A stretch of 34,348 nucleotides of DNA. It comes from a virus. Under the pieces are notes generated by a model. It was given only the letters and a program-made list of their open reading frames with translations, was not told the origin of the DNA and made no database searches. This document shows, in pieces, positions 1 through 31,478 of the stretch. Position 1 is the first letter of the stretch. Every line of letters begins with the position of its first letter. Location: positions 1 to 34,348 of IMG/VR virus record IMGVR_UViG_3300022928_002248; one strand, written 5' to 3'. A program made the translations under genes and the position numbers.

Positions 1-777
1 CAAGTATTTGCATTTTCACCAACAAATGAAATAAGGGTTTACGATATTGACCCATTAAAGTCAACTCATAGTTTATCAGAAACGCATGAGTGTGATTTTA
101 TATTTGTTTGTGTACCGACACCAATGAAATCTGATGGTAGACAAGATTTATCCTTTATTGAAAATGTATTTGAAGAATCTAAAAAGGGTCCAATTTATAT
201 TATTAAATCAACCGTATTACCGGGAACTACAGAAAAATTAATTGAAAAGTATCCTCATCTAAATATTATTTTTTCCCCTGAGTTTTTAACCGAAAGAACC
301 GCCAAATTAGATATGTTAACTCAGGCAAGAATTATTCTTGGAGGTGAAAAAAAATTAACTGAAAAAGTAGAATCACTATTTTCAAATCGTTTTATGAATA
401 GACACTTTATCCATACAGATTCAAAAACCGCAGAATTTATAAAATATATGAATAATACATTTTTTGCAACTAAAGTGTCTCTAATGAATGAATACTATCG
501 TCTATCTAAACTTGTTGGTATTAATTGGGAAGACGCTATGTATGGTTTTTCATCAGACGGAAGGGTAGGTGATTCTCATTTACATGTACCAGGTCCTGAT
601 GGTAAATTAGGGTTTGGAGGGACGTGCTTCCCTAAAGATATTAATGCTTTAACATCTATGGCAAAAGATGTGGGTGTTAGAATGAATGTTTTAGAGGCGG
701 CTTGGAAAACCAATTTAGAGGTTAGACCTGAACAAGATTGGAATAAACTAAAGGGTCGAGCAATTAGTGAAAATTAA
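1..777 (+). CDS. UDP-glucose/GDP-mannose dehydrogenase family protein, 5'-partial, lacking the C-terminal domain
   Basis: The open frame runs from base 1 without a start, so the N-terminal Rossmann part is cut by the window edge; the ATG at 124 is internal, because the frame upstream still reads FVCVPTP, a conserved family segment. Family motifs follow: SPEFL, a KYMNNTFFATKVSLMNE helix with the conserved Lys and Asn, and GFGGTCFPKD holding the catalytic cysteine. These enzymes oxidise a nucleotide sugar twice with NAD to the uronic acid. The protein stops about 45 residues after the Cys motif, whereas cellular enzymes continue with a nucleotide-binding domain of roughly 100 residues. It is followed 4 nt later by an epimerase gene, suggesting one sugar-nucleotide pathway. 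Family is secure; the substrate is not known. Confidence 0.88.
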   Translation, partial: QVFAFSPTNEIRVYDIDPLKSTHSLSETHECDFIFVCVPTPMKSDGRQDLSFIENVFEESKKGPIYIIKSTVLPGTTEKLIEKYPHLNIIFSPEFLTERTAKLDMLTQARIILGGEKKLTEKVESLFSNRFMNRHFIHTDSKTAEFIKYMNNTFFATKVSLMNEYYRLSKLVGINWEDAMYGFSSDGRVGDSHLHVPGPDGKLGFGGTCFPKDINALTSMAKDVGVRMNVLEAAWKTNLEVRPEQDWNKLKGRAISEN

Positions 778-781
778 ATAA

Positions 782-1864
782 ATGAAAAAAATAGTAGTTT
801 TAGGTGGTGGTGGTTTTATTGGAGGTCACCTTGCCAAAAGGTTAAAAGAAGAAGATAATGTAGTAATAATTTGTGATATAAAAAATCATGAATTTTTTAA
901 TCATTCTGATATCTGTGATAAGTTCATCAAAGGGGATTTAAGAGACCCCAAAGTAGTTTCAGAAGTTATAGATGATGATGTCGATGAGGTTTATCAGTTA
1001 GCTGCCGATATGGGAGGTGCGGGTTATATTTTTACAGGTGAAAATGACGCAAATGTTATGCATAACTCTGCTTTGATTAACTTAAATGTGGTTCATGAGT
1101 CTACAAAAAAGAAAGTGAAAAAAGTCTTTTATTCTTCTTCGGCATGTATGTATCCTGAATATAACCAACTAGATTCAAGTAATCCTAATTGTGAAGAATC
1201 ATCCGCATATCCTGCGAATCCCGATTCAGAATATGGGTGGGAAAAATTATTTTCAGAAAGATTATTCTTGTCATTTAATCGTAACTACGGTTTAGATGTT
1301 AGAATTGCAAGATTCCATAATATATTTGGACCTATGGGCACTTGGACAGGAGGAAAAGAAAAGGCTCCTGCTGCTATGTGTAGAAAAGTATCAGAATCTA
1401 CCGATACTGTTGAGGTGTGGGGAGATGGTAACCAAACTCGTTCATTTCTTTATATAGATGAGTGTGTTGAAGCCATATTAAGATTGATGAAATCAGATTT
1501 TATCGGACCTGTTAATATTGGTTCAGAAGAAATGGTTACAATTAATCAATTAGCCCAAATGGCTATTGATATATCAAATAAAGATGTTAAAATTAGTAAT
1601 ATAGATGGACAAGATTTCGTAGATAAATATGGGTTTCAATGTCCTTTAGGTGTGAGGGGTAGAAACTCCGATAATAAACTTTATAAAGAAAAAATAGGTT
1701 GGGAAGTGTCTCAACCACTTATAGAAGGTATGAAAAAAACTTATGAATGGATAGATAAACAAGTAAAAGAAAAAACTTATATCTATGAAAGTCCCGATAA
1801 TGGTAAAACCATATATCGTAGAGAGTTCGGTAAAGAACCAAATTCTCGTGAACGAATCAAATAA
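782..1864 (+). CDS. NAD-dependent sugar-nucleotide epimerase, GDP-mannose 3,5-epimerase-like
   Basis: A 360-residue extended short-chain dehydrogenase/reductase. The N-terminal GGGGFIGG loop binds NAD. Catalytic residues are visible as SSSACMYP (Ser) and YGWEK (Tyr and Lys). The segments AADMGG, ARFHNIFGP and GGKEKAPAAMCRK resemble GDP-mannose 3,5-epimerase more than UDP-glucose 4-epimerase. That enzyme converts GDP-mannose to GDP-L-galactose or GDP-gulose. Length is normal for the family. It lies 4 nt after the dehydrogenase and upstream of two glycosyltransferases, so it may supply a sugar for a virion or host-surface glycan. The family is secure; the exact reaction is inferred from motif resemblance. 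Confidence 0.85.
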   Translation: MKKIVVLGGGGFIGGHLAKRLKEEDNVVIICDIKNHEFFNHSDICDKFIKGDLRDPKVVSEVIDDDVDEVYQLAADMGGAGYIFTGENDANVMHNSALINLNVVHESTKKKVKKVFYSSSACMYPEYNQLDSSNPNCEESSAYPANPDSEYGWEKLFSERLFLSFNRNYGLDVRIARFHNIFGPMGTWTGGKEKAPAAMCRKVSESTDTVEVWGDGNQTRSFLYIDECVEAILRLMKSDFIGPVNIGSEEMVTINQLAQMAIDISNKDVKISNIDGQDFVDKYGFQCPLGVRGRNSDNKLYKEKIGWEVSQPLIEGMKKTYEWIDKQVKEKTYIYESPDNGKTIYRREFGKEPNSRERIK

Positions 1865-1882
1865 AAAAAGAATACTGAAATA

Positions 1883-2587
1883 ATGGCAAGAAAAGGCGAA
1901 ATAAGTAGAAAAATCCCAAGAAAAGATTTAATAAATAAAATTATAAGTAGAAACCCTAAACAAAAATTTTTATCAGAAAGTCAAAAAGAATATTATAACA
2001 TATTAAAAGATAGTGAAATTACCATATGTACAGGACCCGCAGGTGTTGGTAAATCATATATAGCGATGAAAGCTGCGGTAGAACTTTTAATGGACCATAA
2101 TAATTCCTATGAAAAAATTATAATTGTTAGACCGGCAGTTGAAGCTGAAGAAAAATTAGGTGCGTTACCAGGTAATTTAGAAGAAAAATTAGACCCTTAC
2201 ATTTTTCCATCATATTACTTATTAAACAAAATAATAGGTAAAGAGGCGAGAGAAAAATTAAAGGAAAACGATATAATCGAGGTATTTGCATTAGCATATA
2301 TGAGAGGAATGAATATTGATAATTCAATACTAATTTTTGAAGAAGCTCAAAATTCTACTCCTTCACAAATGAAATTACTTTTAACTCGAATAGGTTTTAA
2401 TAGTAAATTTTTCATATCAGGAGATATTGAACAAACAGATAGGTATAAAGATAAAACACAATCAGGTTTATATGATGCCACAACAAGATTTAAAAATTTA
2501 GAAAAAGTGGGAACATATAACTTTAAATCAGATGATATTATAAGAAATCCTTTGATTACCAAATTATTAGATAGGTACGATACATGA
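1883..2587 (+). CDS. phoH: PhoH-like P-loop ATPase
   Basis: A 234-residue protein with Walker A GPAGVGKS at residues 51-58, the VRPAVEAEEKLGALPG segment typical of PhoH, and a Walker B-like ILIFEEAQN followed by SGDIEQ. PhoH proteins are cytoplasmic ATPases linked to RNA metabolism and phosphate stress in bacteria. They are very common in marine phages, but their phage role is unproven. In most family members the Walker B reads DEAQ; here the first acidic residue is Glu. The stop overlaps the next start as ATGA, indicating translational coupling with the HAD-like gene. Confidence 0.9.
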   Translation: MARKGEISRKIPRKDLINKIISRNPKQKFLSESQKEYYNILKDSEITICTGPAGVGKSYIAMKAAVELLMDHNNSYEKIIIVRPAVEAEEKLGALPGNLEEKLDPYIFPSYYLLNKIIGKEAREKLKENDIIEVFALAYMRGMNIDNSILIFEEAQNSTPSQMKLLLTRIGFNSKFFISGDIEQTDRYKDKTQSGLYDATTRFKNLEKVGTYNFKSDDIIRNPLITKLLDRYDT

Positions 2588-3234
2588 AAGTAGCATTTGA
2601 CATAAACGGAGTAATAAGAGATACCTTCTTAAAGGCGGAACAACTTTATCAAAAGTTTTACATTGATGAGTATGAGGAAGATAAAGTCTCTACATATAAT
2701 GAGGAAACTGAAGAATTCGTGGTTAACGAATCCGAAGAAGATTTTATATATGAGTTAAATCTTCCTGTCACATCTTTATCAAATTTAGAAGACCATTTTA
2801 AATTTAGAGATAAGGACGAGTTATTTAACTTTTTTTATGTTGATTTTCCAATGCAAATATTTGGACACTCACCATCTATTAATGTTTCAACATTTAATAT
2901 ATTAAATGAAATATATGAAGAATTAAGAGACGAGCACGATGTTTTAATAGTTTCTGATGAAATAGGTAAATCTAAACCAGCTACCCTATTTTTCTTATCA
3001 AAATATGGGTGTTTGGTTGAAAAAATCAAATTCTATTCTAATATTACTTTAGAGTCTATGTGGGATGAAGTCGATATATTAGTTACCGCTAACCCTGACC
3101 ACATACTTAATAACCCAAAAGATAAAACAATTATTAAGTACACAACATCATATAATGAACACATAGAATGTGAATATACAATTAATGATATTGATGAATT
3201 TAAAGAGTTATATAAAAAATTAAAATTAAAGTAA
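2584..3234 (+). CDS. HAD-like hydrolase-fold protein
   Basis: A 216-residue protein that begins with FDINGV, matching HAD motif I (DxDGT/V) except that the second acidic position is Asn. Motif II is plausible in VLIVSDE, motif III Lys in GKSKPATLFFLSKYG, and motif IV in DEVDILVTANPDH. HAD enzymes are usually phosphatases using the first Asp as nucleophile. The Asn at the second position, normally the general acid/base, suggests altered or weak phosphatase activity, or a binding role. It overlaps phoH by 4 nt at its start and the next gene as TAATG at its end. Fold assignment is moderately sure; substrate unknown. Confidence 0.6.
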   Translation: MKVAFDINGVIRDTFLKAEQLYQKFYIDEYEEDKVSTYNEETEEFVVNESEEDFIYELNLPVTSLSNLEDHFKFRDKDELFNFFYVDFPMQIFGHSPSINVSTFNILNEIYEELRDEHDVLIVSDEIGKSKPATLFFLSKYGCLVEKIKFYSNITLESMWDEVDILVTANPDHILNNPKDKTIIKYTTSYNEHIECEYTINDIDEFKELYKKLKLK

Positions 3235-3545
3235 TGTTAGAATTCTTAGGAGAAAATTATTATGTTGATTTTGATATGTTAGAAAATCATGTTAACATAC
3301 CAAAAAAAGAAGATGAGGATGAATCGCAAAAAGATAATGAATCGTCTAACAATGAGGACAAGTTTTTACAACACATTAGTGTAGTTAAATTTGAAACTAT
3401 AAAAATGATGTTAGAAGTTGTTTTAACTGAAAGAGAAGAAGTTGATGATAATTTAGGGATAAGGGGCAGTTCAAGAACCTTAAGTATTCCCTTTAAATTT
3501 GCTTTTAATACATTATTAAAACACGGAATAATAAAATATATTTAA
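3234..3545 (+). CDS. Hypothetical protein, 103 aa, acidic linker
   Basis: I do not recognise this protein. It has a short N-terminal segment rich in aromatic and acidic residues, a charged low-complexity linker (about residues 25-42, Glu/Asp/Lys/Asn/Ser), then a compact helical-looking C-terminal part. Its ATG overlaps the HAD gene stop as TAATG, and the glycosyltransferase starts 3 nt after it, so it is part of the same operon. Real coding is supported by this tight packing and by continuous operon-like spacing. No function can be assigned. Confidence 0.7.
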   Translation: MLEFLGENYYVDFDMLENHVNIPKKEDEDESQKDNESSNNEDKFLQHISVVKFETIKMMLEVVLTEREEVDDNLGIRGSSRTLSIPFKFAFNTLLKHGIIKYI

Positions 3546-3548
3546 ATT

Positions 3549-4613
3549 ATGGATACAGAATTATTAAAAAAAGTAGAACAATCTGTTCAAAACTTAGAAA
3601 ATAAATCAGTTAGGATTTATTTTTTAACACAAGATACTAAAGGGAATGCTAAAGCTTCAGTTAGACAAACATATGAAACTGCATTAACCTTAAAGAATAA
3701 TGGTTTCAACCCTATAATCATTCATGAAACAAAAGAATATACCGGAGTTTCAGAATGGTTAGGTGAAGAATATATGACTTTACCTCATGAGTCTATTGAT
3801 GGTGACCAATTAAAAATATCACCTGAGGATTTTATTGTTGTACCTGAAATATACGGTCACGTTTTAGAACAAGTTGCAAATTTACCATGTGGTAAGATTA
3901 TATCTTGTCAAGCATATGACCACATGTTAGAAACATTACAACCTGGTACCACATGGTCTCAATATGGATTTTTAAAGGCCATCACTACAAATGAAAAACA
4001 AACTGAATATATTAAAGGAATAATTAAAAACGTTTCATTTGATATTATCGAACCATTTATACCTGAAGTATTTTCACCAAAAACTGTACCTTCAAAACCA
4101 ATCATATCAATTCATACTCGTGACCAAAGAGACACTATGAAAATAATTAAAACTTTTTATTTAAAGTTCCCACAATTTAGATGGATAACATTTAGAGATA
4201 TGAGAGGATTAACTCAATCTCAATTCGCTGAATACCTAAAGGATTCTTTTGTTTCGGTATGGGTAGATGATACCTCATCATTCGGTACCTTCCCTATGGA
4301 GTCAATGGCGAGTCGCACACCCGTTATAGGTAAAGTTCCTAATATGAAACCTGAATGGATGAATGAGACTAATGGTATTTGGACGTATGAGTTAAATCAA
4401 ATGGTAGACATTATAGCTGAATTCATTCAAAATTGGTTAGAGGATAATATTAACGATGAATTATATCAATCAGGTATTAATACCGCAGCTAAGTTCCAAA
4501 ATAGAAAAGAATTTGATAGTGTTGTTGTATCAACATTTGAAAATTACTTAAATTCAAGAAAAGAGGTGTTTGAATCTCAATTAGATAAACTTAAAGTAGA
4601 GGAAGAAAATTAA
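3549..4613 (+). CDS. GT-B fold glycosyltransferase (GT4-like)
   Basis: A 354-residue protein. The N-terminal half reads like a Rossmann domain (VRIYFLTQDTKGNAKAS, then alternating strands and helices). The C-terminal half has a nucleotide-sugar-site signature with the order SFGTFPMESMASRTPVIG, where the Glu of FPMESM corresponds to the conserved EX7E-type acidic residue of GT4-like enzymes. Such enzymes transfer a sugar from a nucleotide donor. It is followed 5 nt later by a GT2-type transferase and lies downstream of sugar-nucleotide enzymes. Targets could be virion proteins, phage DNA or a host glycan; the sequence does not decide. Confidence 0.72.
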   Translation: MDTELLKKVEQSVQNLENKSVRIYFLTQDTKGNAKASVRQTYETALTLKNNGFNPIIIHETKEYTGVSEWLGEEYMTLPHESIDGDQLKISPEDFIVVPEIYGHVLEQVANLPCGKIISCQAYDHMLETLQPGTTWSQYGFLKAITTNEKQTEYIKGIIKNVSFDIIEPFIPEVFSPKTVPSKPIISIHTRDQRDTMKIIKTFYLKFPQFRWITFRDMRGLTQSQFAEYLKDSFVSVWVDDTSSFGTFPMESMASRTPVIGKVPNMKPEWMNETNGIWTYELNQMVDIIAEFIQNWLEDNINDELYQSGINTAAKFQNRKEFDSVVVSTFENYLNSRKEVFESQLDKLKVEEEN

Positions 4614-4618
4614 AAGTT

Positions 4619-5425
4619 ATGGAAAATAAATTAAACGTATCAGTAATATTACCAATTAATTCATCAAAAATTAAAGATTTTGAAAAGTATTTTGATAGTT
4701 GTATTACATCAATAAATAAACAAACTACTACTATTGATGAATTAGTATTAGTACATAGTGACGAAGAGTCATTAACATCATTTGTTCAAAATTACGATTA
4801 TAGTGGTTTGACGGTTAACCTTGTTGAAAATAAAGGAGATGTTGATTTTGCAAGTCAAGTAAATTTAGGAGTTGAGAACGCAAAGAATGAGTGGGTTTCA
4901 TTATTAGAGGTTGATGATGAATACGCCTCAATATGGTTTAAGAATGTAAAAAGATATATGGATGCGTATCCAAACGTATCAGGATTTTTACCTTTGGTTA
5001 TTGATGTGGATGAAAAAGGTGTTTTTGCTGGATTCACAAATGAAGCTACTTTTGCAGCAAACATGAACAGTGAAATCGGTTATTTAACAAATGAAGTTTT
5101 ATTAAATTATCAAAATTTTCAAACAAGTGGAGTAGTTTTGAAAAAATCGATTTTTCAAGATTTTGGAGGACTTAAGAAATCTATGAAATTAACCTTTGTC
5201 TATGAATTTTTATTAAGACTTACCTATAACTCTGTAGAGATTATGACTATACCAAGAATTGGTTATAAACATATGAATATGAGGGAGGGTTCTATTTTTT
5301 GGAACTACAAGTTTGGTGAAAACAAAATAACTGAGGATGAAGTAGCGTTTTGGATTGATTCGGCGAAAAAAGAGCATTTTTTTATTGAAGATAGGGACAT
5401 AAACTATCAAGCAATAGATGTTTAA
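4619..5425 (+). CDS. Family 2-type glycosyltransferase (GT-A fold)
   Basis: A 268-residue protein opening with VSVILPINSS and a SINKQTTTIDELVLV segment, the usual start of a GT2 nucleotide-binding domain. It continues with ASQVNLGVENAKNEWVSLLEVDDEY, where VDDE occupies the metal-binding DxD position. A later FLLRLTY segment fits the acceptor part. The family transfers sugars from UDP or GDP donors using a divalent metal. No membrane helices are visible, so it is probably soluble. Its stop overlaps the next start as TAATG, coupling it to the sigma factor gene. Confidence 0.75.
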   Translation: MENKLNVSVILPINSSKIKDFEKYFDSCITSINKQTTTIDELVLVHSDEESLTSFVQNYDYSGLTVNLVENKGDVDFASQVNLGVENAKNEWVSLLEVDDEYASIWFKNVKRYMDAYPNVSGFLPLVIDVDEKGVFAGFTNEATFAANMNSEIGYLTNEVLLNYQNFQTSGVVLKKSIFQDFGGLKKSMKLTFVYEFLLRLTYNSVEIMTIPRIGYKHMNMREGSIFWNYKFGENKITEDEVAFWIDSAKKEHFFIEDRDINYQAIDV

Positions 5426-6216
5426 TGTCTTTAGAACCAAAAAGTGCTACTACTAAAACTAAATCAACTGAAATTATAGTCTCGGCAAATACTGAGACTG
5501 TTGAGAAAAAGAAACGTGGTAGAAAACCAACAACTAATAATTACTTTGCAGAAAGAGAAGAAAGAGCGGTTAGATTTTTTCTAACCGCATCTACTTTTAC
5601 TGAAAAGAATAAAATTTATGATGATTATCTAAGAGCACCTTTAGATAAGATGATTGAATCTATAATTAGGAGATACAAGCTCTATAGAAAAGGAATGGAC
5701 TTTAGAGAAATTCATCATGATACACATTCTTTCTTGATAACTAAAGTAGAAAAGTTTAAACCTGAAAAAGGAAAGAAGGCATATTCTTATTTTGGTACAA
5801 TATGTAAAAATTACCTTATGGGTATGATTATAAAAGACCAAAAAGAACAGAATAGAAAAATATCATATGAGGATATCACTACTAAATTAGAGAGTCGTCC
5901 TGATATGATTTATTACCTTGAAAATGAAAAAATAGAAGCGACAGAAGTAATAAAAAAATTCAACAAAGAGTTAGAAGATTTTATTGAAAATACTAACTTA
6001 AATAATAATGAACTTAAATTAGGTTACGCACTAATGGAATTATTTGAAAATTATAATAAAATTTTTATTGGTACTGATAATAACAAATTTAACAAAAATA
6101 TTATTTTACTCTCATTAAGAGAAATGACAAATATGTCAACGAAAGAAATAAGGACCTCAATGAGAAAATTTAAAAAACTATATTATGAATTAACAAATAG
6201 GCTTCATAATCTCTAA
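5425..6216 (+). CDS. 55: T4 gp55-like late-transcription sigma factor
   Basis: A 263-residue protein. After a basic, disordered N-terminus (about residues 1-40, with KKKRGRKP), residues 70-135 resemble sigma-70 region 2 as trimmed in T4 gp55: YLRAPLDKMIESIIRRY, a long charged helix, then FKPEKGKKAYSYFGTICKNYLMG, which matches the core-binding and -10 recognition helices. No clear region 4 is seen, as in gp55. Such factors direct host RNA polymerase to a simple -10-like late promoter. The recurring TATTTATA elements in this window are the natural candidate target. It could instead be a more general phage sigma factor. Confidence 0.78.
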   Translation: MSLEPKSATTKTKSTEIIVSANTETVEKKKRGRKPTTNNYFAEREERAVRFFLTASTFTEKNKIYDDYLRAPLDKMIESIIRRYKLYRKGMDFREIHHDTHSFLITKVEKFKPEKGKKAYSYFGTICKNYLMGMIIKDQKEQNRKISYEDITTKLESRPDMIYYLENEKIEATEVIKKFNKELEDFIENTNLNNNELKLGYALMELFENYNKIFIGTDNNKFNKNIILLSLREMTNMSTKEIRTSMRKFKKLYYELTNRLHNL

Positions 6217-6226
6217 AAAATTGTTC

Positions 6227-6240
6227 TATAAATATTTATA
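6227..6240 (+). promoter_or_regulatory. Putative late promoter, palindromic TATAAATATTTATA
   Basis: A 14-base perfect palindrome containing both TATAAATA and TATTTATA ends 5 nt before the ATG at 6246. It sits in the only gap (29 nt) between the sigma factor gene and the tail block, so it likely starts a new transcription unit. Both orientations of the late element are present, so the direction is not decided by the motif alone. Confidence 0.55.
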
Positions 6241-6245
6241 GTATT

Positions 6246-6620
6246 ATGGCAAGACCGAAAAAAAAACAAATCGTACTAAATAAAGACTCTGTCTTATCTC
6301 TTATGCAAGAAATTTATAATGAACTTGTAGAACAGAGAGCAACTGCGATAAGAATTCAAAATAAAATGTTAGCCATGTTAAAGGACCCTGAAGATATGAC
6401 TGTTATAGGTCCTGTTATTAAAGAACAACAAAAAATAGTAAACGACACCATAGAGAAAAAATTATCATTATCTAAATTACAATCTAGTATATGGGAAAAA
6501 TCTAACAATCAAACATCTGAAGAATTTAGTTTGTCCGATATTGATGATGATACACTACAAACCTTAATACAGCAAGATTTAGGAAACGATGATAAGAACG
6601 ATGGGTATAAATTAGAGTAA
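6246..6620 (+). CDS. Hypothetical helical protein, 124 aa
   Basis: I do not recognise this protein. It starts with a basic tail (MARPKKKQ), continues with long amphipathic helices rich in Gln, Glu and Lys (about residues 15-90), and ends in an acidic tail. It looks like a small helical structural or chaperone-type protein. It is the first gene after a late-type promoter element and lies 11 nt upstream of the large 652-aa gene. Its position at the head of the tail/baseplate block suggests a virion or assembly role, but nothing more specific can be supported. Confidence 0.75.
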   Translation: MARPKKKQIVLNKDSVLSLMQEIYNELVEQRATAIRIQNKMLAMLKDPEDMTVIGPVIKEQQKIVNDTIEKKLSLSKLQSSIWEKSNNQTSEEFSLSDIDDDTLQTLIQQDLGNDDKNDGYKLE

Positions 6621-10352: not shown

Positions 10353-10360
10353 TATTTATA
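10353..10360 (+). promoter_or_regulatory. Late promoter element TATTTATA
   Basis: TATTTATA followed by TTAAAAAG lies 13 nt before the ATG at 10374. The same element and spacing recur before several minus-strand structural genes. Confidence 0.65.
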
Positions 10361-10373: not shown

Positions 10374-11837
10374 ATGTCATTTTATAAATCATACTTTTCT
10401 AGAAACAATACAATAGTACTTAATTCCTTTGCCAATACAGGAAGAAATCCTATTACTGAATTATTTTTCGGGGGTGTAGATAATATTACATCACCTAAAG
10501 GATTCAGTAGATTTTTATTTGACATAGAATTATCAGGTTTAACCAGTAAACTTGACACTGGAAAAATATCAACAGGATGTACTCCGACTATGAAACATAC
10601 TTTACGTATGACTAACACATCTTCTTTTGATAAAGAATTATTAAATACTGAATGGTCGAATGGTAGAAGAAGAGCAAGTTCATTTGATTTAGTTTTATTT
10701 AGAATTCCTAAAGTATCAGGTAGTACAGGTAGTAGTCAATTATGGGATGAAGGTGTAGGTTACGATTATTATGATTTTAATGAACTACCAACGGACAAAG
10801 CTTATTCTACTCGTCCAACAAATTGGTACGAATCTCAAACAATATCTAATTGGTCAACACCTGGAGTTTATGACAATGAAAATAATAATCCTATTTCAGG
10901 TTTAAATTTTTCAGGTTTAACTATTGTAGATACACAACATTTTGAGTTTGGAGATGAAGACATTAGTTTTGATATGACTAATGAAATAAATGATATCTTA
11001 ACCGGAGCAACAACAGGTGTATCTGGTTGGGGTGTGGCGTTTTATCCGAGTGTTGAAAACATAACAGGTTTAACTGAAAATTATTCTGTAGGGTTTTTTA
11101 CTCGTCACACTCAAACATTTTATGAGCCGTACTTAGAAACGGAATATCATGATTTAATTCAAGACGATAGAAACATATTTTATGCAACTAAAAATAACAA
11201 ACTATATCTTTATAGTTATGTATTTGGTAATCCTCAAAATTTTGATGAATTACCAACGGTAGATATAAAAGATGAATCAGGAGGTATCTATTATTTAGAT
11301 TTACCGACATGTCAAATTGCCGATGGTGTTTATGAAGTTCAAGTATCAGGTTTAACTCCTACATCAATACCTTGTATGTATTATGATGAATGGAAAAATT
11401 TAAAAGTTAACGGTGTTAGTTTACCTAATATTACTAATGAATTTGTGGTCAATGAACTATCAGATTATTATCAAATAGGTACAACAACTAACGAACCTTC
11501 TATATATGGATTTGATTTTTATGGAATTAAACAAGACGAGAAAATTTTAGGTAATGATACTAGAAAAGTTAATGTCATTATAAAGAAGGCTTACACAACT
11601 AACGAAGTATTAAGTAAAGTAGACGCATATTATAGGGTTTATGTTAGAGAAGGAAAAACTGAAGTACAAGTACAAGATTGGACTAAGATTAATCGAACTC
11701 CAGATAGTCACTATTTTATATTCTACACTGATGATAAAATACCTAATGAATATTTTATAGATATAAAGGTGATTACTGATAGAGAAGTTAATACTTATAA
11801 AAGAGAACTTAAATTCCAAATAGTCAATAGAAAATGA
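10374..11837 (+). CDS. Putative virion structural protein, beta-rich, 487 aa
   Basis: I do not recognise a family with certainty. The protein is rich in Gly, Thr, Asn, Tyr and Phe with short alternating strands, as in tail-fibre, wedge or decoration proteins. SGLT-type turns recur (for example near residues 54, 178, 226 and 323). There is no signal peptide and no collagen-like repeat. The C-terminal 100 residues look like a separate beta domain (VNVIIKKAYTTNEV and onward). It has its own late-type promoter element and overlaps the next gene by 4 nt (ATGA). A tail or baseplate accessory role is inferred from context only. Confidence 0.78.
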   Translation: MSFYKSYFSRNNTIVLNSFANTGRNPITELFFGGVDNITSPKGFSRFLFDIELSGLTSKLDTGKISTGCTPTMKHTLRMTNTSSFDKELLNTEWSNGRRRASSFDLVLFRIPKVSGSTGSSQLWDEGVGYDYYDFNELPTDKAYSTRPTNWYESQTISNWSTPGVYDNENNNPISGLNFSGLTIVDTQHFEFGDEDISFDMTNEINDILTGATTGVSGWGVAFYPSVENITGLTENYSVGFFTRHTQTFYEPYLETEYHDLIQDDRNIFYATKNNKLYLYSYVFGNPQNFDELPTVDIKDESGGIYYLDLPTCQIADGVYEVQVSGLTPTSIPCMYYDEWKNLKVNGVSLPNITNEFVVNELSDYYQIGTTTNEPSIYGFDFYGIKQDEKILGNDTRKVNVIIKKAYTTNEVLSKVDAYYRVYVREGKTEVQVQDWTKINRTPDSHYFIFYTDDKIPNEYFIDIKVITDREVNTYKRELKFQIVNRK

Positions 11838-12100: not shown

Positions 12101-12112
12101 TTGTTATATTTG
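12082..12112 (+). promoter_or_regulatory. Host-type (Bacteroidota) promoter, TTG-N20-TATATTTG
   Basis: TTG at 12082-12084 and TATATTTG at 12105-12112 match the Bacteroidota -33/-7 pattern (TTG, 19-21 nt, TAnnTTTG). The ATG of the next gene is at 12133. The -33 element lies inside the end of the preceding gene. Confidence 0.6.
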
Positions 12113-12132: not shown

Positions 12133-12330
12133 ATGTATCGAAATACCACTTACCAGTTAGTAAAGTCTACAAGTTCGAAAGAAAAAGTTGTAATGGAAAC
12201 TGAAGCATCTTGTATTGAAAAGGCTATTGATTATTTTTATTTATGTGAACCTAAAGCATATTCTAACCCGAAGTATCTAATCAGAATTAAAAAAAATACA
12301 TTTAAGGATTTAGCGAGAGCTTGGGATTAA
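12133..12330 (+). CDS. Small hypothetical protein, 65 aa
   Basis: I do not recognise this protein. It has an N-terminal strand-like segment (MYRNTTYQLVKSTSS), a helix around EASCIEKAIDYFYL, and a basic C-terminus. It carries its own host-type promoter, unlike the surrounding late genes, and so may be expressed early. Its stop codon overlaps the stop of the convergent cupin-like gene by a shared TTAA, with no terminator hairpin between them. Coding is supported by the promoter and by the fit of both gene ends. Confidence 0.65.
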   Translation: MYRNTTYQLVKSTSSKEKVVMETEASCIEKAIDYFYLCEPKAYSNPKYLIRIKKNTFKDLARAWD

Positions 12331-12875
12331 CTCGTCTTAGAGATTACCCACTTATAACCGATATCACCACCTTTCAAAAGCCATTGTACATACTCTAAGT
12401 CTTTATAAGGTTTACCCTTATAATCTTCATTAAGAGTTACATTATTTTTTTTACTATCAAAAAATTTCTTAGACTTAATTAATTCATTTTTATGTATAAT
12501 ACCGTTTTCGATAATCTTATGTGTCGATTTACTAAAAATACCACCTCTTTTAGAGTACGATAACCCCTTTTTCATCTGATTAATCACAGGTTTAGGTACT
12601 CTTATATAATCATTATCTTCTATAATAACAATTTTAAGGTCACCAGACCCTTTAATTACTCTGTGGTAACTCTCTTTACTAATAAAGTATTTTTGTCCAA
12701 CCTGAAGGTCCTGAGGTAGTTCTTCATCCATTTGTAGTTTCCAACCGTCACTTGATTCTACAAATATTATACGGTCGTACTCATCTTTGTGCCATTTTAA
12801 CTCTTCAGAGTTAACTGACTCATTAAAAACTCTACGTTTTTTATTATGTGATAGTTGTGTGTCTGAATATAACAT
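12327..12875 (-). CDS. Cupin-like protein, 182 aa
   Basis: The start is placed at the ATG at 12875, which overlaps the upstream stop as TAATG; a TTG two codons earlier is less likely. Residues about 25-95 (KWHKDEYDRIIFVESSDGWKLQMDEELP, then VGQKYFISKESYHRVIKGSGDLKIVIIED) read as a small beta-barrel. A His in SYHRVIKG sits where cupins hold a metal-binding or sugar-site residue. The C-terminal 80 residues are basic and unrecognised. Similar cupin-like proteins occur in marine T4-like phages, as I recall. Function is unknown; a virion role is inferred from its coupling to the Cys/Lys-rich gene. Confidence 0.65.
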   Translation of the reverse strand: MLYSDTQLSHNKKRRVFNESVNSEELKWHKDEYDRIIFVESSDGWKLQMDEELPQDLQVGQKYFISKESYHRVIKGSGDLKIVIIEDNDYIRVPKPVINQMKKGLSYSKRGGIFSKSTHKIIENGIIHKNELIKSKKFFDSKKNNVTLNEDYKGKPYKDLEYVQWLLKGGDIGYKWVISKTS

Positions 12876-14731
12876 TACCAAAATCTACCTGAGACATTTT
12901 TACCAAAATCTTTATGTGCTCTACACGCCCAATATCCAGCTTTAGTTTTGTCTTTTTTCTTAGCACACTGATGTCTAGCCGCAAATGATTTACGAGCACC
13001 GGGGTCGTTCCATTTAGCAGTCATAACAGGTGACCCATAAGAGACTTTTATAACTTTACCTGTTTTAGGGTTTTTAACATAAACATACCATTTTTTAGGT
13101 CCTCCCGATTTAGGTTTATTTAAACTAACCTTTTTACCCTTATATTCTGCCTCATTTAATGTTTTTAAACTTTTACCAAGTTTTTCTAACTCGGATAAAA
13201 CACTATTAGATAAATCTCCAACAAGTTTTTCAATAGTGTCTTTAGCTTTTTCAGCTTTTTGAGATAAGGTATTAGGTGTTTTATTATCTCTTAAATCCAT
13301 AAAATACATTTTCACTTCTTTAAGTGCCCCTATCATATCGATATCTTTATTACTATCTTCCCAATACTGCTGAGATAATTGCATCGCATAACCCAATAAA
13401 ATATTGTAATTTAAATCACTATCAGTATTTTCATTGACTTCATTGGCGTATGTCCCGTCCCAACTAAATGATTGTTCATTTACCATAGGAAAATCAAGAG
13501 GTAATCTTTCACCTTTATATATAAAGAACTTTCCTCTATCAGATTCTAATAATTCTATCTCTTCCTCACTCCAATCAGTATACCCTTGATTATATAATTT
13601 ACGAGCTTCGTTAATTACATCAAAATATTTAGGACTACCGTATCTAAAAACGTTTTCAGTTAATGAAATTTTATTATCAAAATGGTACTGTAACTCTTCC
13701 GATATTACTTGTTTTTTTACAACATAATTACGTAAAACATTTTCGATTAATTCAATTTCTTCTTCCCCATCAATAGGTTCACTTAGTTGCAATGGTGATT
13801 GAATGTCATCAATATTTTTAGATTTTAATGGTGGGTCCAATAAAAATCTCTGATTAATCCAATTTCTTAATTCATTCTCTACGAAATATTCAGGTACAGG
13901 TTCATCGTCAGGTTTTTCTGATGCGAGTTCAGAGATATAATAAGCGAACTTTAATTTACTTTTACTATTCATTAAACTCATTAAACCATCACTAACAAAA
14001 AATATTTTACTAAACGGGTCGGTAGGGTTTATATTACCCTCTGCCAATTCAAGTACCCTTAAAATAGATTTTGCCCACCAAGATTTGTAAGAACTAGTTT
14101 GTTTTAATAAGGGTCCCAATACTTTATTGGCTGACCTCATAGCTGAAGCTATAAATTCACCGATGGCAACTTGTGGTATAAACCATGGTAGGAGGCGAAG
14201 AAATGCCTTTACACTACCTTCACCCACGTTTTTAAACAGTCTCTTACTCATCGCAGCATCCACAATACTTCTTAACTGTCCAAAAGTAATAGGTCCTTGT
14301 GCTTTACAAAACTTTTCAGAATCACATATACTTTTAACTGCTACGTCAGATACATTAATATCTGCCATTTCATCCTCTAAGACTAATTTAATTAATTTGT
14401 CTATTGATTCATTTTTCTTTTTATAATTTTTCACTTTAATTCTTGTAGGTTTTTGACCTTTGCCTGTTTGAGTGTCTTTTTTCTCTTTTTCCCTTTTTCT
14501 ACGACAAGCAGAATCCTTTTCTTTTTGTGTCATCTTACCTGCAACACCGGCACCTCTACAAACAGGATACGCACCTTTATCCGCATCACTACGTCCACAT
14601 GGGGGGTGTCCTCCACCTTTTTTCTTCTTACAAATATTAACCCATGGACCTTTTGGTTGAGATGAACCTTTCTTCTTTTTTTTCTTTCCAAACCATACGG
14701 CTAAATCTTCTGATAAAATATATTCACTCAT
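12875..14731 (-). CDS. Multi-module Cys/Lys-rich phage protein, 618 aa
   Basis: The N-terminus (residues about 10-95) has Lys runs and a Cys module: WVNICKKKKGGGHPPCGR, YPVCRG, then a SACRRKREKEKK tail. I recall such PCGR...YPxCR modules from marine phages and giant viruses (possibly DUF5872; unverified). A helical middle of about 400 residues follows (LLPWFIPQVAIGEFIASAM, IFFVSDGLMSLM), then an acidic linker. The C-terminus has KKWYVYVKNPKTGKVIKVSYG and RKSFAARHQCAKKKDKTKAGYWACR, another module I have seen repeatedly in marine phage proteins. Four to six Cys per end suggest metal binding. A head-internal or DNA-associated role is possible but unproven. Confidence 0.72.
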   Translation of the reverse strand: MSEYILSEDLAVWFGKKKKKKGSSQPKGPWVNICKKKKGGGHPPCGRSDADKGAYPVCRGAGVAGKMTQKEKDSACRRKREKEKKDTQTGKGQKPTRIKVKNYKKKNESIDKLIKLVLEDEMADINVSDVAVKSICDSEKFCKAQGPITFGQLRSIVDAAMSKRLFKNVGEGSVKAFLRLLPWFIPQVAIGEFIASAMRSANKVLGPLLKQTSSYKSWWAKSILRVLELAEGNINPTDPFSKIFFVSDGLMSLMNSKSKLKFAYYISELASEKPDDEPVPEYFVENELRNWINQRFLLDPPLKSKNIDDIQSPLQLSEPIDGEEEIELIENVLRNYVVKKQVISEELQYHFDNKISLTENVFRYGSPKYFDVINEARKLYNQGYTDWSEEEIELLESDRGKFFIYKGERLPLDFPMVNEQSFSWDGTYANEVNENTDSDLNYNILLGYAMQLSQQYWEDSNKDIDMIGALKEVKMYFMDLRDNKTPNTLSQKAEKAKDTIEKLVGDLSNSVLSELEKLGKSLKTLNEAEYKGKKVSLNKPKSGGPKKWYVYVKNPKTGKVIKVSYGSPVMTAKWNDPGARKSFAARHQCAKKKDKTKAGYWACRAHKDFGKNVSGRFW

Positions 14732-14764: not shown

Positions 14765-14772
14765 TATAAATA
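14765..14772 (-). promoter_or_regulatory. Possible late promoter element TATTTATA (minus sense)
   Basis: On the minus strand this reads TATTTATA, 33 nt before the ATG at 14731. On the plus strand it is TATAAATA, 39 nt before the ATG at 14812. It lies in the 80-nt divergent gap, so it may serve either gene; the A-rich extension is weaker than at other copies. Confidence 0.45.
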
Positions 14773-15495: not shown

Positions 15496-17223
15496 TTATC
15501 TTAAAGAGTTCAAGTCGAACGTTCTAACACCATCAACAACGATTCTACCATAGAAACGGTTATTAACCATCTTCTTAGCGTATCTAGTCATGATACCCTT
15601 GATAGGTGTGAAGTTGAATGGGTTATACATTGTAGGTGTCAACTGTAATGGTACATACGGTGCGTAAACGTACCCTGTATCCAATAAAGAAGAACCTTTG
15701 TGTCCCATCAATACAGTGTTAGGTGGGAAGTAAGGGTCTCTATATACTTGGTATCTACCAGATAATGTACCTACTCTCTCAATACCCATATTGTATTGGT
15801 CTTGGTCAGGAGCTGCATTTGAAACGTGGAAGTACTCCAAGTCATCAAAGATTGCTGAAATTTCCGAAGAAACTACAATCCAGTTAGCTCCACCTCTTAA
15901 TGTTGATTTGTGGATTTGAGCTGAGATTTGGTTAATCGCAGTGATTAACGTTTGGTTCCAGTCTTTTTGGTTATAATTAACTGAACCATTAGACACTCTC
16001 TTCCATCCGTTGTAATCCCAACGTAATGTCCAAGCCGCACCTTTTCTCAAGTCTCTTAAGATTTCACGGTCAATTTCAGCCGCCACTTGCTCTGATAATA
16101 AAGCTGTTAATTCAGCTTCAGCATCAATGTTGTGGAACGCCGAAACGTCTTGTGCTAATTCTGGAGACCACTGAGCTCTTAATTTTCTTTCTGTAACCGA
16201 TACAGTAACTGCATCAAGGTCGAAAGAAACTTCACCGATTTGGTCTTCGAATTCTAAATCTTTATATATTCTATATGTCGCGTTAAATGCTGGATTAGCT
16301 CCGAATGTTGTACCTGTGTAACCGTCTATAGACGCTCCTGCAACTGCTGGAGTTGAAGTGTCAACAGCTAAGTAGATTACACCGTCTGCAGTACAGATGT
16401 CGTCATATCTTCCACCTGGGAAAGTTGTAGGTTGCTCATAACCGTACTGTACGATACCTTTACCATACTTCTGAGTAACAACGTTAAAGTTGTAGTAAGT
16501 ACCACCACTACTTACAACTAACGATGATAAGAACTCTTCAGTATCTTGTTCGTTACCGTTAGGTCCGATTAATTTACCTTGACCTGCAGATGAGAAACCT
16601 GATAAAGCAACAAGTACTTGTCTTACGTTACCTGCAGAGTAAGCTGTACCAACATTTGTTGATAAAGCAGAACCACTCCATACTACGTTTGTTAAAGCCG
16701 CAGTAACTGCTGAGTATGCTCCTTTAGAGTAATCGAATAAACCTGCTGGGTCTGAGTTAGGTACTTCACCTTCGTAGAATCTATCATAAAGGTTTTTACC
16801 TGAACCATAACCATCGTTAAGAGTTTGACCTGTTGCGTTAGGTGCTCCAAACGGTGCCCAGTGATTATTCAAAGCATCTGCTTGTCTGTTTTGAATTTTA
16901 GGTACAAAGTAGAATAATTTACCGATTGGTAAGTTCATCGCTTGTACTGAAACGATATCATTAGCTAATAATTTAGAGAATACTCTTCTAATGATAGGGA
17001 AGACAACTGTCTCAAATGAACCTGAGTTATCTGATGCAGATGCTTCGTTAATTAAGTGAGAAGCTTGGTTTTCATATAATTGTGCCATGTTCTCTTTTAC
17101 GTGACCTTTAAGACCCTCTAAGAATCCTAATTTGTCCCATTTGTTGATTGTGTCTTCTTTAATAACTTTAAGGTGTTTTAACCCAATGTTACCAACAAGA
17201 CCTGATTCTAATAATGCTCCCAT
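15496..17223 (-). CDS. 23: Major capsid protein, T4 gp23-like
   Basis: A 575-residue protein with the gp23 pattern. The N-terminal helical region precedes FETVVFPIIRRVFSKLLANDIVSVQAMNLPIGKLF, which matches the gp23 segment of the HK97-fold N-arm. It ends with IMTRYAKKMVNNRFYGRIVVDG, the typical C-terminus. The segment LINE(60)|ASAS fits the T4 prohead protease rule and lies close to the T4 cleavage after residue 65, so residues 1-60 are probably removed on maturation. Gene order scaffold then capsid is as in T4. Codons are richer in G and C than in neighbours, as expected for a very abundant protein. It begins 24 nt after the scaffold gene. Confidence 0.95.
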   Translation of the reverse strand: MGALLESGLVGNIGLKHLKVIKEDTINKWDKLGFLEGLKGHVKENMAQLYENQASHLINEASASDNSGSFETVVFPIIRRVFSKLLANDIVSVQAMNLPIGKLFYFVPKIQNRQADALNNHWAPFGAPNATGQTLNDGYGSGKNLYDRFYEGEVPNSDPAGLFDYSKGAYSAVTAALTNVVWSGSALSTNVGTAYSAGNVRQVLVALSGFSSAGQGKLIGPNGNEQDTEEFLSSLVVSSGGTYYNFNVVTQKYGKGIVQYGYEQPTTFPGGRYDDICTADGVIYLAVDTSTPAVAGASIDGYTGTTFGANPAFNATYRIYKDLEFEDQIGEVSFDLDAVTVSVTERKLRAQWSPELAQDVSAFHNIDAEAELTALLSEQVAAEIDREILRDLRKGAAWTLRWDYNGWKRVSNGSVNYNQKDWNQTLITAINQISAQIHKSTLRGGANWIVVSSEISAIFDDLEYFHVSNAAPDQDQYNMGIERVGTLSGRYQVYRDPYFPPNTVLMGHKGSSLLDTGYVYAPYVPLQLTPTMYNPFNFTPIKGIMTRYAKKMVNNRFYGRIVVDGVRTFDLNSLR

Positions 17224-17247: not shown

Positions 17248-18858
17248 TTATTTTTGAAGTTTACCCATTAAATCCTTCATTCTCATAAATTGAGGATTTT
17301 CATAAGTTTTACTTTCGATAAGATTTGTTGCAGAACCTTTAGATGGAGACTTTTGTACCTTAGCTGAAACTGATTCAGTCACTACTGAAGAATTCTCTTT
17401 AGATTCTAAGTTCTCTTTAACTATCTTATAAAGACCTTTTGATTCTTTGATTGTATCTGCAGAATCGAAACGTCTTAAAATGTTTATTTTCTCTTGTTTT
17501 GTTGTCGAATGCTCAGTGAACAGTCGAGTTGCATATGCTAGATTTGAATTGAAAACCGCAACCTCATTAAGTTTTTCTTTAAAGATGTTAAGTGCCTTAC
17601 GGTACTCTTCATTCTTTTCTCTTAATTGTCTTACTTCTTTCTCAAGTGATTCATTGTATCTTGCCTTGTTAGGAATAGAATGTGGTTTTGGTAAACCTTT
17701 AGACTTTTCAGATGAAGCTTTAGAACCAACAGCATGACTTCTTATCATACCTTCTTTAGCTTCTTCATAGTCCGCTTCGTGGTCACCTTGGTCTCCATGA
17801 GACTCACCATCCTTACCGTGGTAATTAGGGTCAGTATCTTTGAAGTTCTTATAGTCACTACGAGTTTTAGATTGGTCACCTTTTTTAGCACCACCTTCAT
17901 TAGTCTCTTCATAATCCTTGTGGGATTTTGAATCGTCTCCTTTCTTACCTCCATACTCTTCATAATGTTCGTCCTTGTGATGTCTTTCAGCATCGTAATG
18001 AGCATCTTTCTTCAACTTCTCAATTTGTGAGTAGTCGTCCTCAGCTGCATCACCAAAATAATTTCCGTCATCTTCTCCAATTTCGATTTCATAAACGACT
18101 TCGTCACCTTCATTAGTTTCGTAGTCTTTATGAGATTTAGAGTCATCACCTTTCTTACCTCCGTATTCTTCATTTGATTCTTCATAATCCTTGTGAGATT
18201 TTGAATCGTCTCCTTTCTTACCTCCGTATTCTTCGTTTGATTCTTCATAATCCTTATGAGATTTAGAGTCGTCACCTTTTTTGCCTCCGAACTCCTCCAT
18301 TTGAATTTGATATTCAACGTCAGCTTCCTCATCTTTTAAGTGAATCTCATCACCGTCTTGTGTTACCACAATACCGTCTTCTTCACCCATAGCTTTGAAA
18401 ACTTTAAGGATTTCTTCGTCAGATGCACCTGTTAAGTCAAGCGGTAAAAGAATTTCTTCTTCATCGTCAACTTCTAAATCATCACCTGGTAAATCCATCA
18501 TAAGCATTTCATCAGAGTCAATTTCAATGTCGTCTTCATCCTCATCGGAATCATCCTCCATATCATCTTCGTCTTCTACCTCCATGTCGTCTTCGATGTC
18601 AAGTTCTTCTTGTTCTTTTGTTTCGTGTTTCATAGATTCCTCCATTTCTTCACCTTCTTCCATTTTTTCACCTTCCATTGCTTCGACTGACACTTCGTCT
18701 TCAATCTCCTCTTCAGATAGAGATTCTTTTACTAATTCACTGATTTCTTCCTTCATAGTAGAAGCAAGTATTCCTTTTGCATTCTCCGTAACGGCTTCCT
18801 CCAAATTTTTCATTTGTAGTAGCGCTTCTTCAACTAAGTTTTGTTTTTTGTCTGCCAT
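17248..18858 (-). CDS. 22: Prohead scaffold protein, T4 gp22-like, with tandem repeats
   Basis: A 536-residue, very acidic protein between the protease and capsid genes, the gp22 position. Residues 55-135 are almost entirely Glu/Asp. Residues 190-250 hold three near-identical 21-residue repeats with core GGKKGDDSKSHKDYE; a fourth copy starts at 302 and a degenerate one at 323. The C-terminal third has a coiled coil (about 405-445) and the gp22-like FNSNLAYATRLFTEHSTTKQE region followed by RRFDSADT. Scaffold proteins form the core on which the capsid assembles and are then digested. T4 gp22 is about half this length, so the acidic and repeat part is an expansion. Confidence 0.88.
   Translation of the reverse strand: MADKKQNLVEEALLQMKNLEEAVTENAKGILASTMKEEISELVKESLSEEEIEDEVSVEAMEGEKMEEGEEMEESMKHETKEQEELDIEDDMEVEDEDDMEDDSDEDEDDIEIDSDEMLMMDLPGDDLEVDDEEEILLPLDLTGASDEEILKVFKAMGEEDGIVVTQDGDEIHLKDEEADVEYQIQMEEFGGKKGDDSKSHKDYEESNEEYGGKKGDDSKSHKDYEESNEEYGGKKGDDSKSHKDYETNEGDEVVYEIEIGEDDGNYFGDAAEDDYSQIEKLKKDAHYDAERHHKDEHYEEYGGKKGDDSKSHKDYEETNEGGAKKGDQSKTRSDYKNFKDTDPNYHGKDGESHGDQGDHEADYEEAKEGMIRSHAVGSKASSEKSKGLPKPHSIPNKARYNESLEKEVRQLREKNEEYRKALNIFKEKLNEVAVFNSNLAYATRLFTEHSTTKQEKINILRRFDSADTIKESKGLYKIVKENLESKENSSVVTESVSAKVQKSPSKGSATNLIESKTYENPQFMRMKDLMGKLQK
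17848..17955 (-). repeat. Scaffold-gene repeat copies 4 and 5 (copy 5 degenerate)
   Basis: These encode YGGKKGDDSKSHKDYEETNE (residues 302-321) and the diverged GAKKGDQSKTRSDYKNF (323-337). They are separated from copies 1-3 by about 50 residues. Confidence 0.75.
18109..18291 (-). repeat. Three tandem 63-bp coding repeats in the scaffold gene
   Basis: Three in-frame units of 63 bp encode 21 residues with core GGKKGDDSKSHKDYE. The DNA of the units is highly similar, differing at a few third positions, which suggests recent tandem duplication. The alternating Lys/Asp/Ser content suggests a flexible linker. Confidence 0.85.
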
Positions 18859-18883: not shown

Positions 18884-18907
18884 TATTTATAGTTTTTATT
18901 ATAAATA
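18884..18907 (-). promoter_or_regulatory. Late promoter element(s) upstream of the scaffold and capsid genes
   Basis: On the minus strand, TATTTATA (18907-18900) is followed by ATAAAAAC, the full extended motif. A TATAAATA follows at 18891-18884, 25 nt before the ATG at 18858. The two octamers are exact inverted repeats with an 8-nt spacer. Because a terminator lies just upstream, this region probably starts the scaffold-capsid transcript. Confidence 0.65.
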
Positions 18908-19971: not shown

Positions 19972-19979
19972 AATAAATA
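19972..19979 (-). promoter_or_regulatory. Late promoter element TATTTATT
   Basis: Minus-strand TATTTATT followed by AAATAAAAAGAT, 12 nt before the protease ATG at 19959. Confidence 0.6.
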
Positions 19980-20375: not shown

Positions 20376-20383
20376 TATAAATA
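20376..20383 (-). promoter_or_regulatory. Late promoter element TATTTATA
   Basis: Minus-strand TATTTATA followed by GTAAAAC, 13 nt before the ATG at 20362. Confidence 0.65.
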
Positions 20384-20896: not shown

Positions 20897-20910
20897 TATT
20901 ACAATATATT

Positions 20911-20918
20911 TATTTATA
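20911..20918 (+). promoter_or_regulatory. Late promoter element TATTTATA
   Basis: Plus-strand TATTTATA, 11 nt before the bS21 ATG at 20930. No Shine-Dalgarno sequence is visible between them. Confidence 0.6.
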
Positions 20919-21890: not shown

Positions 21891-21898
21891 TATAAATA
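21891..21898 (-). promoter_or_regulatory. Late promoter element TATTTATA
   Basis: Minus-strand TATTTATA followed by ATAAAAAAAG, 13 nt before the ATG at 21877. It fills most of the 21-nt gap after the portal gene stop. Confidence 0.65.
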
Positions 21899-23772: not shown

Positions 23773-23780
23773 CATAAATA
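23773..23780 (-). promoter_or_regulatory. Late promoter element TATTTATG
   Basis: Minus-strand TATTTATG followed by TAAAAAGAAGT, 11 nt before the portal ATG at 23761. Confidence 0.6.
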
Positions 23781-29600: not shown

Positions 29601-29756
29601 TTAACTATATAAACCATTACCACCAAGTCTTACAGTAGTACATTGTACTTTATCCTTTCCGTTATCACCTGTATAAACAGCATGATACGGTGTAAATCCT
29701 GTAGTTCCTGACACAGGAATTACGTATTGTGTCGATGTACATCCAGTTTGCGCCAT
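29601..29756 (-). CDS. Small protein of 51 aa with its own late promoter
   Basis: A short frame with ATG at 29756 and TAA at 29603-29601. The product begins MAQTGCTSTQYVIPVSG, continues FTPYHAVYTG, and ends VRLGGNGLYS; it is neutral, rich in Thr and Gly, with two Cys. I do not recognise it. Coding is supported by a strong late-type element 13 nt before the ATG, matching the best copies elsewhere, and by filling a 258-nt gap that otherwise has no gene. It may be a small virion decoration or fibre-associated protein. Confidence 0.7.
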   Translation of the reverse strand: MAQTGCTSTQYVIPVSGTTGFTPYHAVYTGDNGKDKVQCTTVRLGGNGLYS

Positions 29757-29769: not shown

Positions 29770-29777
29770 AATAAATA
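29770..29777 (-). promoter_or_regulatory. Late promoter element TATTTATT
   Basis: Minus-strand TATTTATT followed by ATAAAAAAC, 13 nt before the ATG of the 51-aa gene at 29756. Confidence 0.62.
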
Positions 29778-30586: not shown

Positions 30587-30594
30587 AATAAATA
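30587..30594 (-). promoter_or_regulatory. Possible late element TATTTATT
   Basis: Minus-strand TATTTATT only 4 nt before the ATG at 30582. The A-rich extension is missing. With this spacing the transcript would be leaderless, or the match may be chance. Confidence 0.35.
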
Positions 30595-30853: not shown

Positions 30854-30894
30854 AATACATTTTTTTATAAGTATATAAAAGTTTAATAAATAAA

Positions 30895-31448: not shown

Positions 31449-31478
31449 TTGATAACTACATAATTTTTGTTATCTTTG
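31449..31478 (+). promoter_or_regulatory. Host-type (Bacteroidota) promoter, TTG-N19-TATCTTTG
   Basis: TTG at 31449-31451 and TATCTTTG at 31471-31478 with 19 nt between them match the Bacteroidota consensus very well. The ATG of the ClpC-like gene is at 31503, giving a leader of about 15-20 nt. A second TATCTTTG at 31321 lacks a TTG at the right distance. Confidence 0.75.

Follow-up and report, generated by a model that had tools for sequence, protein, structure and literature searches.

A candidate gp55-like late sigma factor, probably independent of a T4-type clamp, and candidate -10-only promoters in a group of T4-like phages

Late transcription in phage T4 is the textbook example of how a sliding clamp can tie transcription to replication. 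It requires gp33 and the gp45 clamp (PMC2988020, PMC7892883), and its promoters are eight-base -10-only elements, TATAAATA, that serve virion genes. The residues of gp55 that line the DNA pocket and contact the polymerase are named in passages of a cryo-EM study, in which Y97 stacks on the flipped A at -12 and N13 and H95 hold the A at -9 (PMC7892883). A review of T4 late genes raises the question of why a fused late sigma is missing, and states that such a protein had yet to be found (PMC2988020, section 9). Passages of PMC7824862 report minimal sigma factors of phages, with orthologues of gp33 in jumbo phages, and T4-like phages of marine Bacteroidetes, along with far-T4 phages, are described in passages of PMC7198788. 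For the Bacteroidota, parts of PMC6847099 give TAnnTTTG with an upstream TTTG as the promoter consensus, state that Shine-Dalgarno sequences are lacking, and report that most Flavobacterium johnsoniae transcripts have leaders, 87% over 10 nt. In the titles, abstracts and passages covered by our literature search there was no description of the sigma or the promoter discussed here, including for promoters or sigma factors of the far-T4 phage RM378, promoters of other far-T4 phages and the phage Mel-JY01; a search for TATTTATA together with phage and promoter returned works that, by title and abstract, were all unrelated.

The stretch of DNA analyzed here, called the window, is the whole of IMG/VR record IMGVR_UViG_3300022928_002248, a linear phage fragment of 34,348 bp that carries virion genes of the T4 type (major head, head protease, portal and large terminase). 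Its open reading frame (ORF) at 5425-6216 is intact, running from an ATG at 5425, which overlaps the stop codon of the preceding gene, to a stop at 6216. We regard it as likely that the product is a late sigma of the gp55 kind that reads -10-only promoters on the host RNA polymerase, and it is probably independent of a T4-type clamp.

5425..6216, + strand: gp55-like late sigma candidate, 263 aa, with a tail at residues 1-40, region 2 at about 43-145 and a C-terminal helical domain at about 165-263

Positions 1-5425 carry genes for a UDP-glucose dehydrogenase, a sugar epimerase, PhoH and a family 2 glycosyltransferase in the same direction as the sigma gene, which thus lies within a run that has no late elements. 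Homologues are common in environmental sequence: 496 of the 499 IMG/VR stretches with peptide patterns of the protein encode one, and a scan for conserved patterns found a relative in at least 583 of 599 stretches. Genome contigs held a single relative, within a metagenome-assembled genome, and the 50,697 records of cultured phages gave two weak matches, one of them in Microcystis phage Mel-JY01, whose homologue found no match when used as a query against viral contigs.

The region 2-like core proposed in the original prediction was borne out by gp55 profiles, by profile-to-profile alignment and by the predicted fold, which agree. With hhalign, a profile of 34 homologues aligned to a profile of 11 gp55 sequences at E=1.5e-5 (probability 80%), and a gp55 HMM ranked three orthologues first to third among 1471 ORFs, with E about 1e-4. 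The check that had been suggested, a profile search against both gp55 and sigma-70 region 2, therefore succeeded in its first half and fell short in its second: Pfam Sigma70_r2 matches the 263-aa protein at E=0.0051 and 17 bits, below the curated cut-off of 24, and reaches E<=0.1 in 23 of the 34 aligned homologues (best 0.0018). The late sigma family phrog_234 matches the protein alone at E 0.31, and neither family cut-off is reached. Across the longer relatives, phrog_234 has exactly one match per contig in 12 of 12, always in the sigma gene (E 2e-5 to 9e-3); at the same lax limit it also matches 7 of 14 control genomes, and it is the place of the matches that outweighs their E-values. PDB sequences searched with a profile of the whole protein returned noise only.

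The predicted structure of the protein has two helical domains, with a mean pLDDT of 69. Residues 43-144 of the AlphaFold model superimpose on sigmaE region 2 (4lup_A) with Z 9.2 and an rmsd of 2.6 over 91 of 91 residues, and on T4 gp55 (7d7c_F) with Z 7.7 and an rmsd of 5.4 over 119 aligned residues. For helical proteins Z values of this size are indecisive alone; in a PDB structure search with the same residues, sigma factors made up nearly all the leading rows, T4 gp55 among them. Profile comparison and predicted fold together identify the N-terminal half as a domain of the sigma region 2 kind with kinship to T4 gp55. The protein as a whole also resembles the ECF sigma factors (sigmaE, 1or7; SigW), which likewise have two helical domains and of which region 2 is the best structural match, and the full-length model aligns with sigmaE over residues 37-259.

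Agreement with gp55 in the DNA pocket described in PMC7892883 is partial: of the seven named residues three are identical and one is similar here. In the hhalign register, R57, F86 and Y97 of gp55 correspond to R83, F111 and Y122, and L54 to I80, and all four are invariant in the 34 homologues. The polymerase contact D74 aligns with an invariant D99, E77 is changed, and the correspondence of E70 hinges on an alignment gap. N13, H95 and T99, which complete the pocket, are not kept in the group. TATTTATA differs from the T4 element at two central bases, -10 and -9, and the changed residues N13 and H95 may correspond to these changed bases.

The protein differs from gp55 in that its C-terminal 100 or so residues (about 165-263) form a conserved helical domain, which gp55 lacks, and no clamp-binding C-terminus was identified. 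Folded alone with 76 sequences, the domain reached pLDDT 83 and pTM 0.76. It is unlike the ECF sigmas in that, taken alone, it has no convincing match to region 4: sigmaA domain 4 (4g8x_A) aligned with VIA Z 3.9 over 59 of 61 residues, at rank 19 and below unrelated rows, and hhalign against sigma region 4 profiles gave a probability of 0.5%. Sigma70_r4 was absent among the best 25 of 44 families for 76 C-terminal homologues, Foldseek against the PDB and a viral library found no match at E<0.7, and PDB sequences searched with the domain profile gave only noise. The original description of the protein as lacking a clear region 4 therefore stands by sequence, within those best 25 families, and is incomplete as to the conserved helical domain that occupies residues 165-263.

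As to gp33, it was absent among the listed structural matches of the C-terminal domain, and a gp33 profile found no match to the domain. A gp33 HMM, however, put the 263-aa protein first among the 1471 ORFs, over residues 161-199 and at E=0.081, where hhalign used another register; we count this match as a lead only. One tentative and rather doubtful idea is that the protein is a naturally unsplit T4-type late sigma, in which a gp55-like region 2 would be joined, within one polypeptide, to a C-terminal domain standing in for gp33, the sigma 4 mimic on the beta flap, and which would need no sliding clamp. In that case the system of T4 may have been derived by splitting and by coupling to the clamp, and the simpler form may persist in far-T4 phages, on the polymerases of several phyla.

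The window was also said to hold many copies of a -10-like element. The raw count of TATTTATA is weak evidence by itself, with 14 copies against 8.4 +/- 2.6 in shuffled sequence and 3 of 100 shuffles reaching 14, and it is the placement before genes that takes the element beyond chance: 7 of the 37 window genes have it in the 50 bp before their start, against 1 of 185 intragenic segments. Four long relatives (among them the contigs G001, G002 and G009) confirm the element more firmly. TATTTAT occurs upstream of 62 of 236 genes in G001, 38 of 162 in G002, 32 of 147 in the third and 39 of 167 in G009 (22-26%), compared to 9 of 1180, 17 of 810, 2 of 735 and 3 of 835 intragenic segments in the same order (0.3-2%), with Fisher p values from 7e-42 to 3e-19. 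Genes in the long relatives are our own choice of ORFs (ATG starts, at least 60 aa, little overlap), and some starts may be wrong. The element is oriented: in G001, TATTTATA is upstream of 38 genes and its reverse complement upstream of 13. The claim that a conserved -35 is lacking also held, since none was found across 171 unique late-class sites; in this the element also departs from the promoters of ECF sigmas. The late-class sites in the window, whose annotated downstream genes are virion genes as in T4, are as follows.

6233..6239, + strand: late element TATTTAT, 6 bp before the ATG of 6246-6620, predicted leaderless; kept in 80 of 84 distinct orthologues
10353..10359, + strand: late element with an A run, 14 bp before the ATG of 10374-11837; kept in 93 of 93 distinct orthologues
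14766..14772, - strand: late element, 34 bp before the ATG of 12875-14731; also 34 bp in G001
18901..18907, - strand: late element, 42 bp before the ATG of 17248-18858, which immediately precedes the gp23 major head gene (15496-17223); the distance in G001 is likewise 42 bp
19973..19979, - strand: late element, 13 bp before the ATG of the gp21-like head maturation protease (19237-19959)
20377..20383, - strand: late element, 14 bp before the ATG of 19982-20362
20907..20917, + strand: two overlapping TATTTAT (20907-20913 and 20911-20917), 16 and 12 bp before the ATG of 20930-21121 (63 aa)
21892..21898, - strand: late element with an A run, 14 bp before the ATG of 21143-21877
23774..23780, - strand: late element, 12 bp before the ATG of the portal gene (gp20), 21899-23761
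29771..29777, - strand: late element with an A run, 14 bp before a 51-aa ORF, 29601-29756
30588..30594, - strand: late element, 5 bp before the ATG of 29830-30582, predicted leaderless
30886..30892, - strand: late element, 32 bp before the ATG of 30605-30853

Element-to-ATG distances in the window and in G001 are nearly identical to the base. Conservation across orthologues was followed at 123 loci; those where the gene was missing, the upstream stretch was shorter than 60 bp or the protein was identical to another were left out of the counts. The bases around the elements of 6246-6620 and 10374-11837 vary while the elements are kept, and in orthologues of five other genes of the run the element is found in 0 of 93, 0 of 94, 0 of 95, 0 of 98 and 1 of 94; at a control gene, 11834, the motif is present in 8 of 56. 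The element before 6246 lies in a palindrome, CTATAAATATTTATAG (window 6225-6240), and many of the listed orthologues lose the palindrome and keep TATTTAT.

Distances from the element to the ATG peak at 4-6 and at 12-18 bp. In 60 of the 74 sites at 12-18 bp an AAA box sits at offsets 11-13 from the first T, whatever the distance to the ATG, and in the 4-6 bp cluster (45 of 168 unique sites) the ATG itself occupies that offset. Among sites at 19 bp or more the box is seen in 8 of 41, and some of these 41 may not be promoters. Unique sites were obtained by merging identical ones, which left 171 of the late class (class A) and 64 of a second class (class B, below); a shorter merging stretch gives 168 of class A. 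We infer that transcription would start at the A residues of the box and that the 4-6 bp cluster represents leaderless late messages: with the A of the ATG at the initiation offset, 45 of 168 sites are predicted to be leaderless. Both the box and the predicted leaderless messages set these phages apart from T4, and the latter stand out against the leaders of F. johnsoniae cited above from PMC6847099. The logo of the late class also has a weak A/T preference at -17 to -14 (G+C 6-15%), some 15 bases to the upstream side.

The closeness of the element to the ATG, with the two distance peaks just described, would also fit a translation-initiation or RNA-processing signal, as would the lack of Shine-Dalgarno sequences that passages of PMC6847099 state for Bacteroidota. 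We rejected this reading and hold it to be very improbable. The AAA box keeps its distance to the element rather than to the ATG, only some of the genes have the element, as the five other genes of the run illustrate, and in Mel-JY01, where AGGA precedes 56 of 229 starts (107 of 1145 segments inside genes), many sites are 32-41 bp away from the ATG, as at the portal and tail tube genes.

These phages also have a second, host-type promoter class. Class B sites have the form TAnnTTTG, with TTG at -25 to -18 in 32 of 64 class B compared to 13 of 171 class A sites (p 5e-12); the full TTG-N17-21-TAnnTTTG pattern was uninformative in windows of 50 bp, which cut it off. Class A has neither the G of the -7 element nor the upstream TTTG of Bacteroidota primary sigma promoters, whose counterpart in these phages is class B, so the original statement that host promoters look unlike the element was borne out by their appearance as a separate class. 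Annotated class A genes belong to the virion or to lysis and encode tail sheath, head-tail adaptor, endolysin, tail fibre, portal and protease, and those of class B include a peptidase, a DNA-binding protein, a DNA methyltransferase and the Clp-type ATPase; the family scan covered 30 of 237 G001 genes, chosen by promoter class or size, and many had no match, with such genes in both classes. In the window, two host-type sites were noted.

12105..12112, + strand: host-type TATATTTG with TTG upstream, before the ATG of 12133-12330 (20 bp in the window, 19 bp in G001); same class in G001
31471..31478, + strand: host-type TATCTTTG with TTG upstream, 24 bp before the ATG of the Clp-type ATPase gene, 31503-33524

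The first belongs to a small ORF of 65 aa (12133-12330, + strand) that has this conserved promoter (TTG and TATATTTG) and converges on late genes. AGGAG is not enriched before G001 genes (6 of 236, and 41 of 1185 inside genes), and because of this and the TAnnTTTG class the host of the phage would appear to be a member of the Bacteroidota.

Two distant phages carry both a homologue of the protein and the core of the element. A model of the group matches WWT39502.1 of Mel-JY01 (PP395634.1 158764-159534) at E 1.3e-14 over 225 residues and Rm378p020 of Rhodothermus phage RM378 (NC_004735.1 17032-17826), where region 2 is covered at E 7e-7. Their annotation is in each case hypothetical protein. 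The Mel-JY01 homologue has no match to phrog_234 at E<=0.1, and nothing in Mel-JY01 matches Pfam Sigma70_r2 at E<=1; both results count against the sigma reading. Both phages have T4-like virion genes and a TATTTA-core element before many genes. In Mel-JY01, whose host by record is the cyanobacterium Microcystis, ATATTTAT occurs 19 times against 2.3 expected, TATTTATA precedes 11 of 229 genes compared to 1 of 229 for TATAAATA, and the sites lie further from the ATG than in the window group. The element stands before the portal and tail tube orthologues in both the window group and Mel-JY01. In RM378 the element reads TTATTTAA, and an AAAA box follows at the same offset (A in 85-97% of 39 sites at offsets 10-13); TATTTAA occurs 40 times against 1.9 expected and precedes 39 of 147 genes, including tail tube and sheath, and the RM378 portal, major head and protease genes have no element directly upstream. 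A T4 control recovered TATAAATA before 11 of 55 genes and in 2 of 275 intragenic segments.

Judged from sequence, the core element travels with the protein across hosts that have different promoters. Reading by the host sigma alone, the possibility against which the original prediction had been set, is made unlikely because the same core recurs with homologues in phages of other hosts, and we rejected it. It is also improbable, in our estimate, that some different sigma, either a second canonical phage sigma or an alternative host sigma, reads the element while the 5425-6216 protein does something else. A second gene for a canonical sigma-70 region 2 passes the Pfam cut-off in three of six long relatives, in frames of 271-276 aa.

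G003:C1:37013-37144: second sigma gene, by Pfam
G004:C1:246879-247088: second sigma gene, by Pfam
G005:C1:68134-68343 (L235): second sigma gene, by Pfam

RM378 likewise has another annotated sigma factor besides Rm378p020, and because of these second genes the reader is ambiguous in G003, G004, G005 and RM378. Pfam finds no second sigma in G001, G002, G009 or Mel-JY01 (in Mel-JY01, no Sigma70_r2 match at E<=1), and the first three nevertheless carry the element before 62 of 236, 38 of 162 and 39 of 167 genes; one host sigma cannot cover all cases when the host of Mel-JY01 is a cyanobacterium.

We prefer the gp55-like protein itself as the reader, and the T4 partners were sought in genomes that encode it. 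Neither gp33 (phrog_254, 0 of 6) nor gp45 (phrog_223, 0 of 6; PF02916, 0 of 6) was found in six long relatives, which are linear contigs and may be incomplete, and the bacterial-type clamp PF02767 was found in 0 of 8 records. The clamp-loader family phrog_168 gave weak matches in five of six relatives (E 2e-10 to 1e-4), each within a frame of 672-687 aa, of which that in G001 is the Clp-type ATPase and not a gp44 gene, and no match in G003 or RM378. Single-sequence searches with T4 gp44, gp45 and gp62 found nothing in four relatives. With gp33, gp45 and gp44 undetected in the six long relatives, we set aside a plain T4 system as found and kept it as a rival on account of the possibly incomplete contigs. 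In that rival form, the partners of the sigma would be homologues of gp33 and of the sliding clamp that have escaped detection through divergence or are encoded beyond the sampled contigs. The T4-like structural genes speak for it, as do the gp33 HMM lead at residues 161-199 and, in Mel-JY01, a clear gp44-type clamp loader (E 6e-77) close to a family B polymerase; given the empty searches, we think it unlikely. The original proposal of a cognate T4-type late system accordingly survives in its gp55-like region 2 and its -10-only class on late genes, and not in the partners, which went undetected, or in the element sequence and the domain layout, which depart from T4.

For the preferred reading, a late sigma that probably needs no T4-type clamp, we envisage that the protein would dock on the host RNA polymerase through its region 2 domain and open promoters consisting of only a -10-like box, (A/C/G)TATTTAT(A). 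Initiation would fall on an A about 11-13 bases from the first T, either in the AAA box or at the A of the ATG, leaving about a quarter of late messages (45 of 168 unique sites) leaderless. Early genes would be transcribed from the host-type promoters (TTTG/TAnnTTTG), and once the sigma was made, the polymerase would be redirected to virion and lysis genes.

The T4-like phages of this large and for the most part uncultured group, apparently without the T4 helper proteins, may thus use a simpler version of the textbook system. With a gp55-like sigma, candidate promoters and clamp partners that escape detection, such a widespread group would reveal if the clamp is indispensable or was added later. 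The sigma would also explain how phages capture polymerases whose own promoters differ, and the late element would allow early and late genes to be read from sequence throughout the group.

A final observation concerns the surroundings of the second host-type site. A small UVR-motif protein (30922-31293, - strand), the Clp-type ATPase (31503-33524, + strand) and a peptidase (33588-34346, + strand) form a cluster in the window that suggests a phage-encoded protease cassette.
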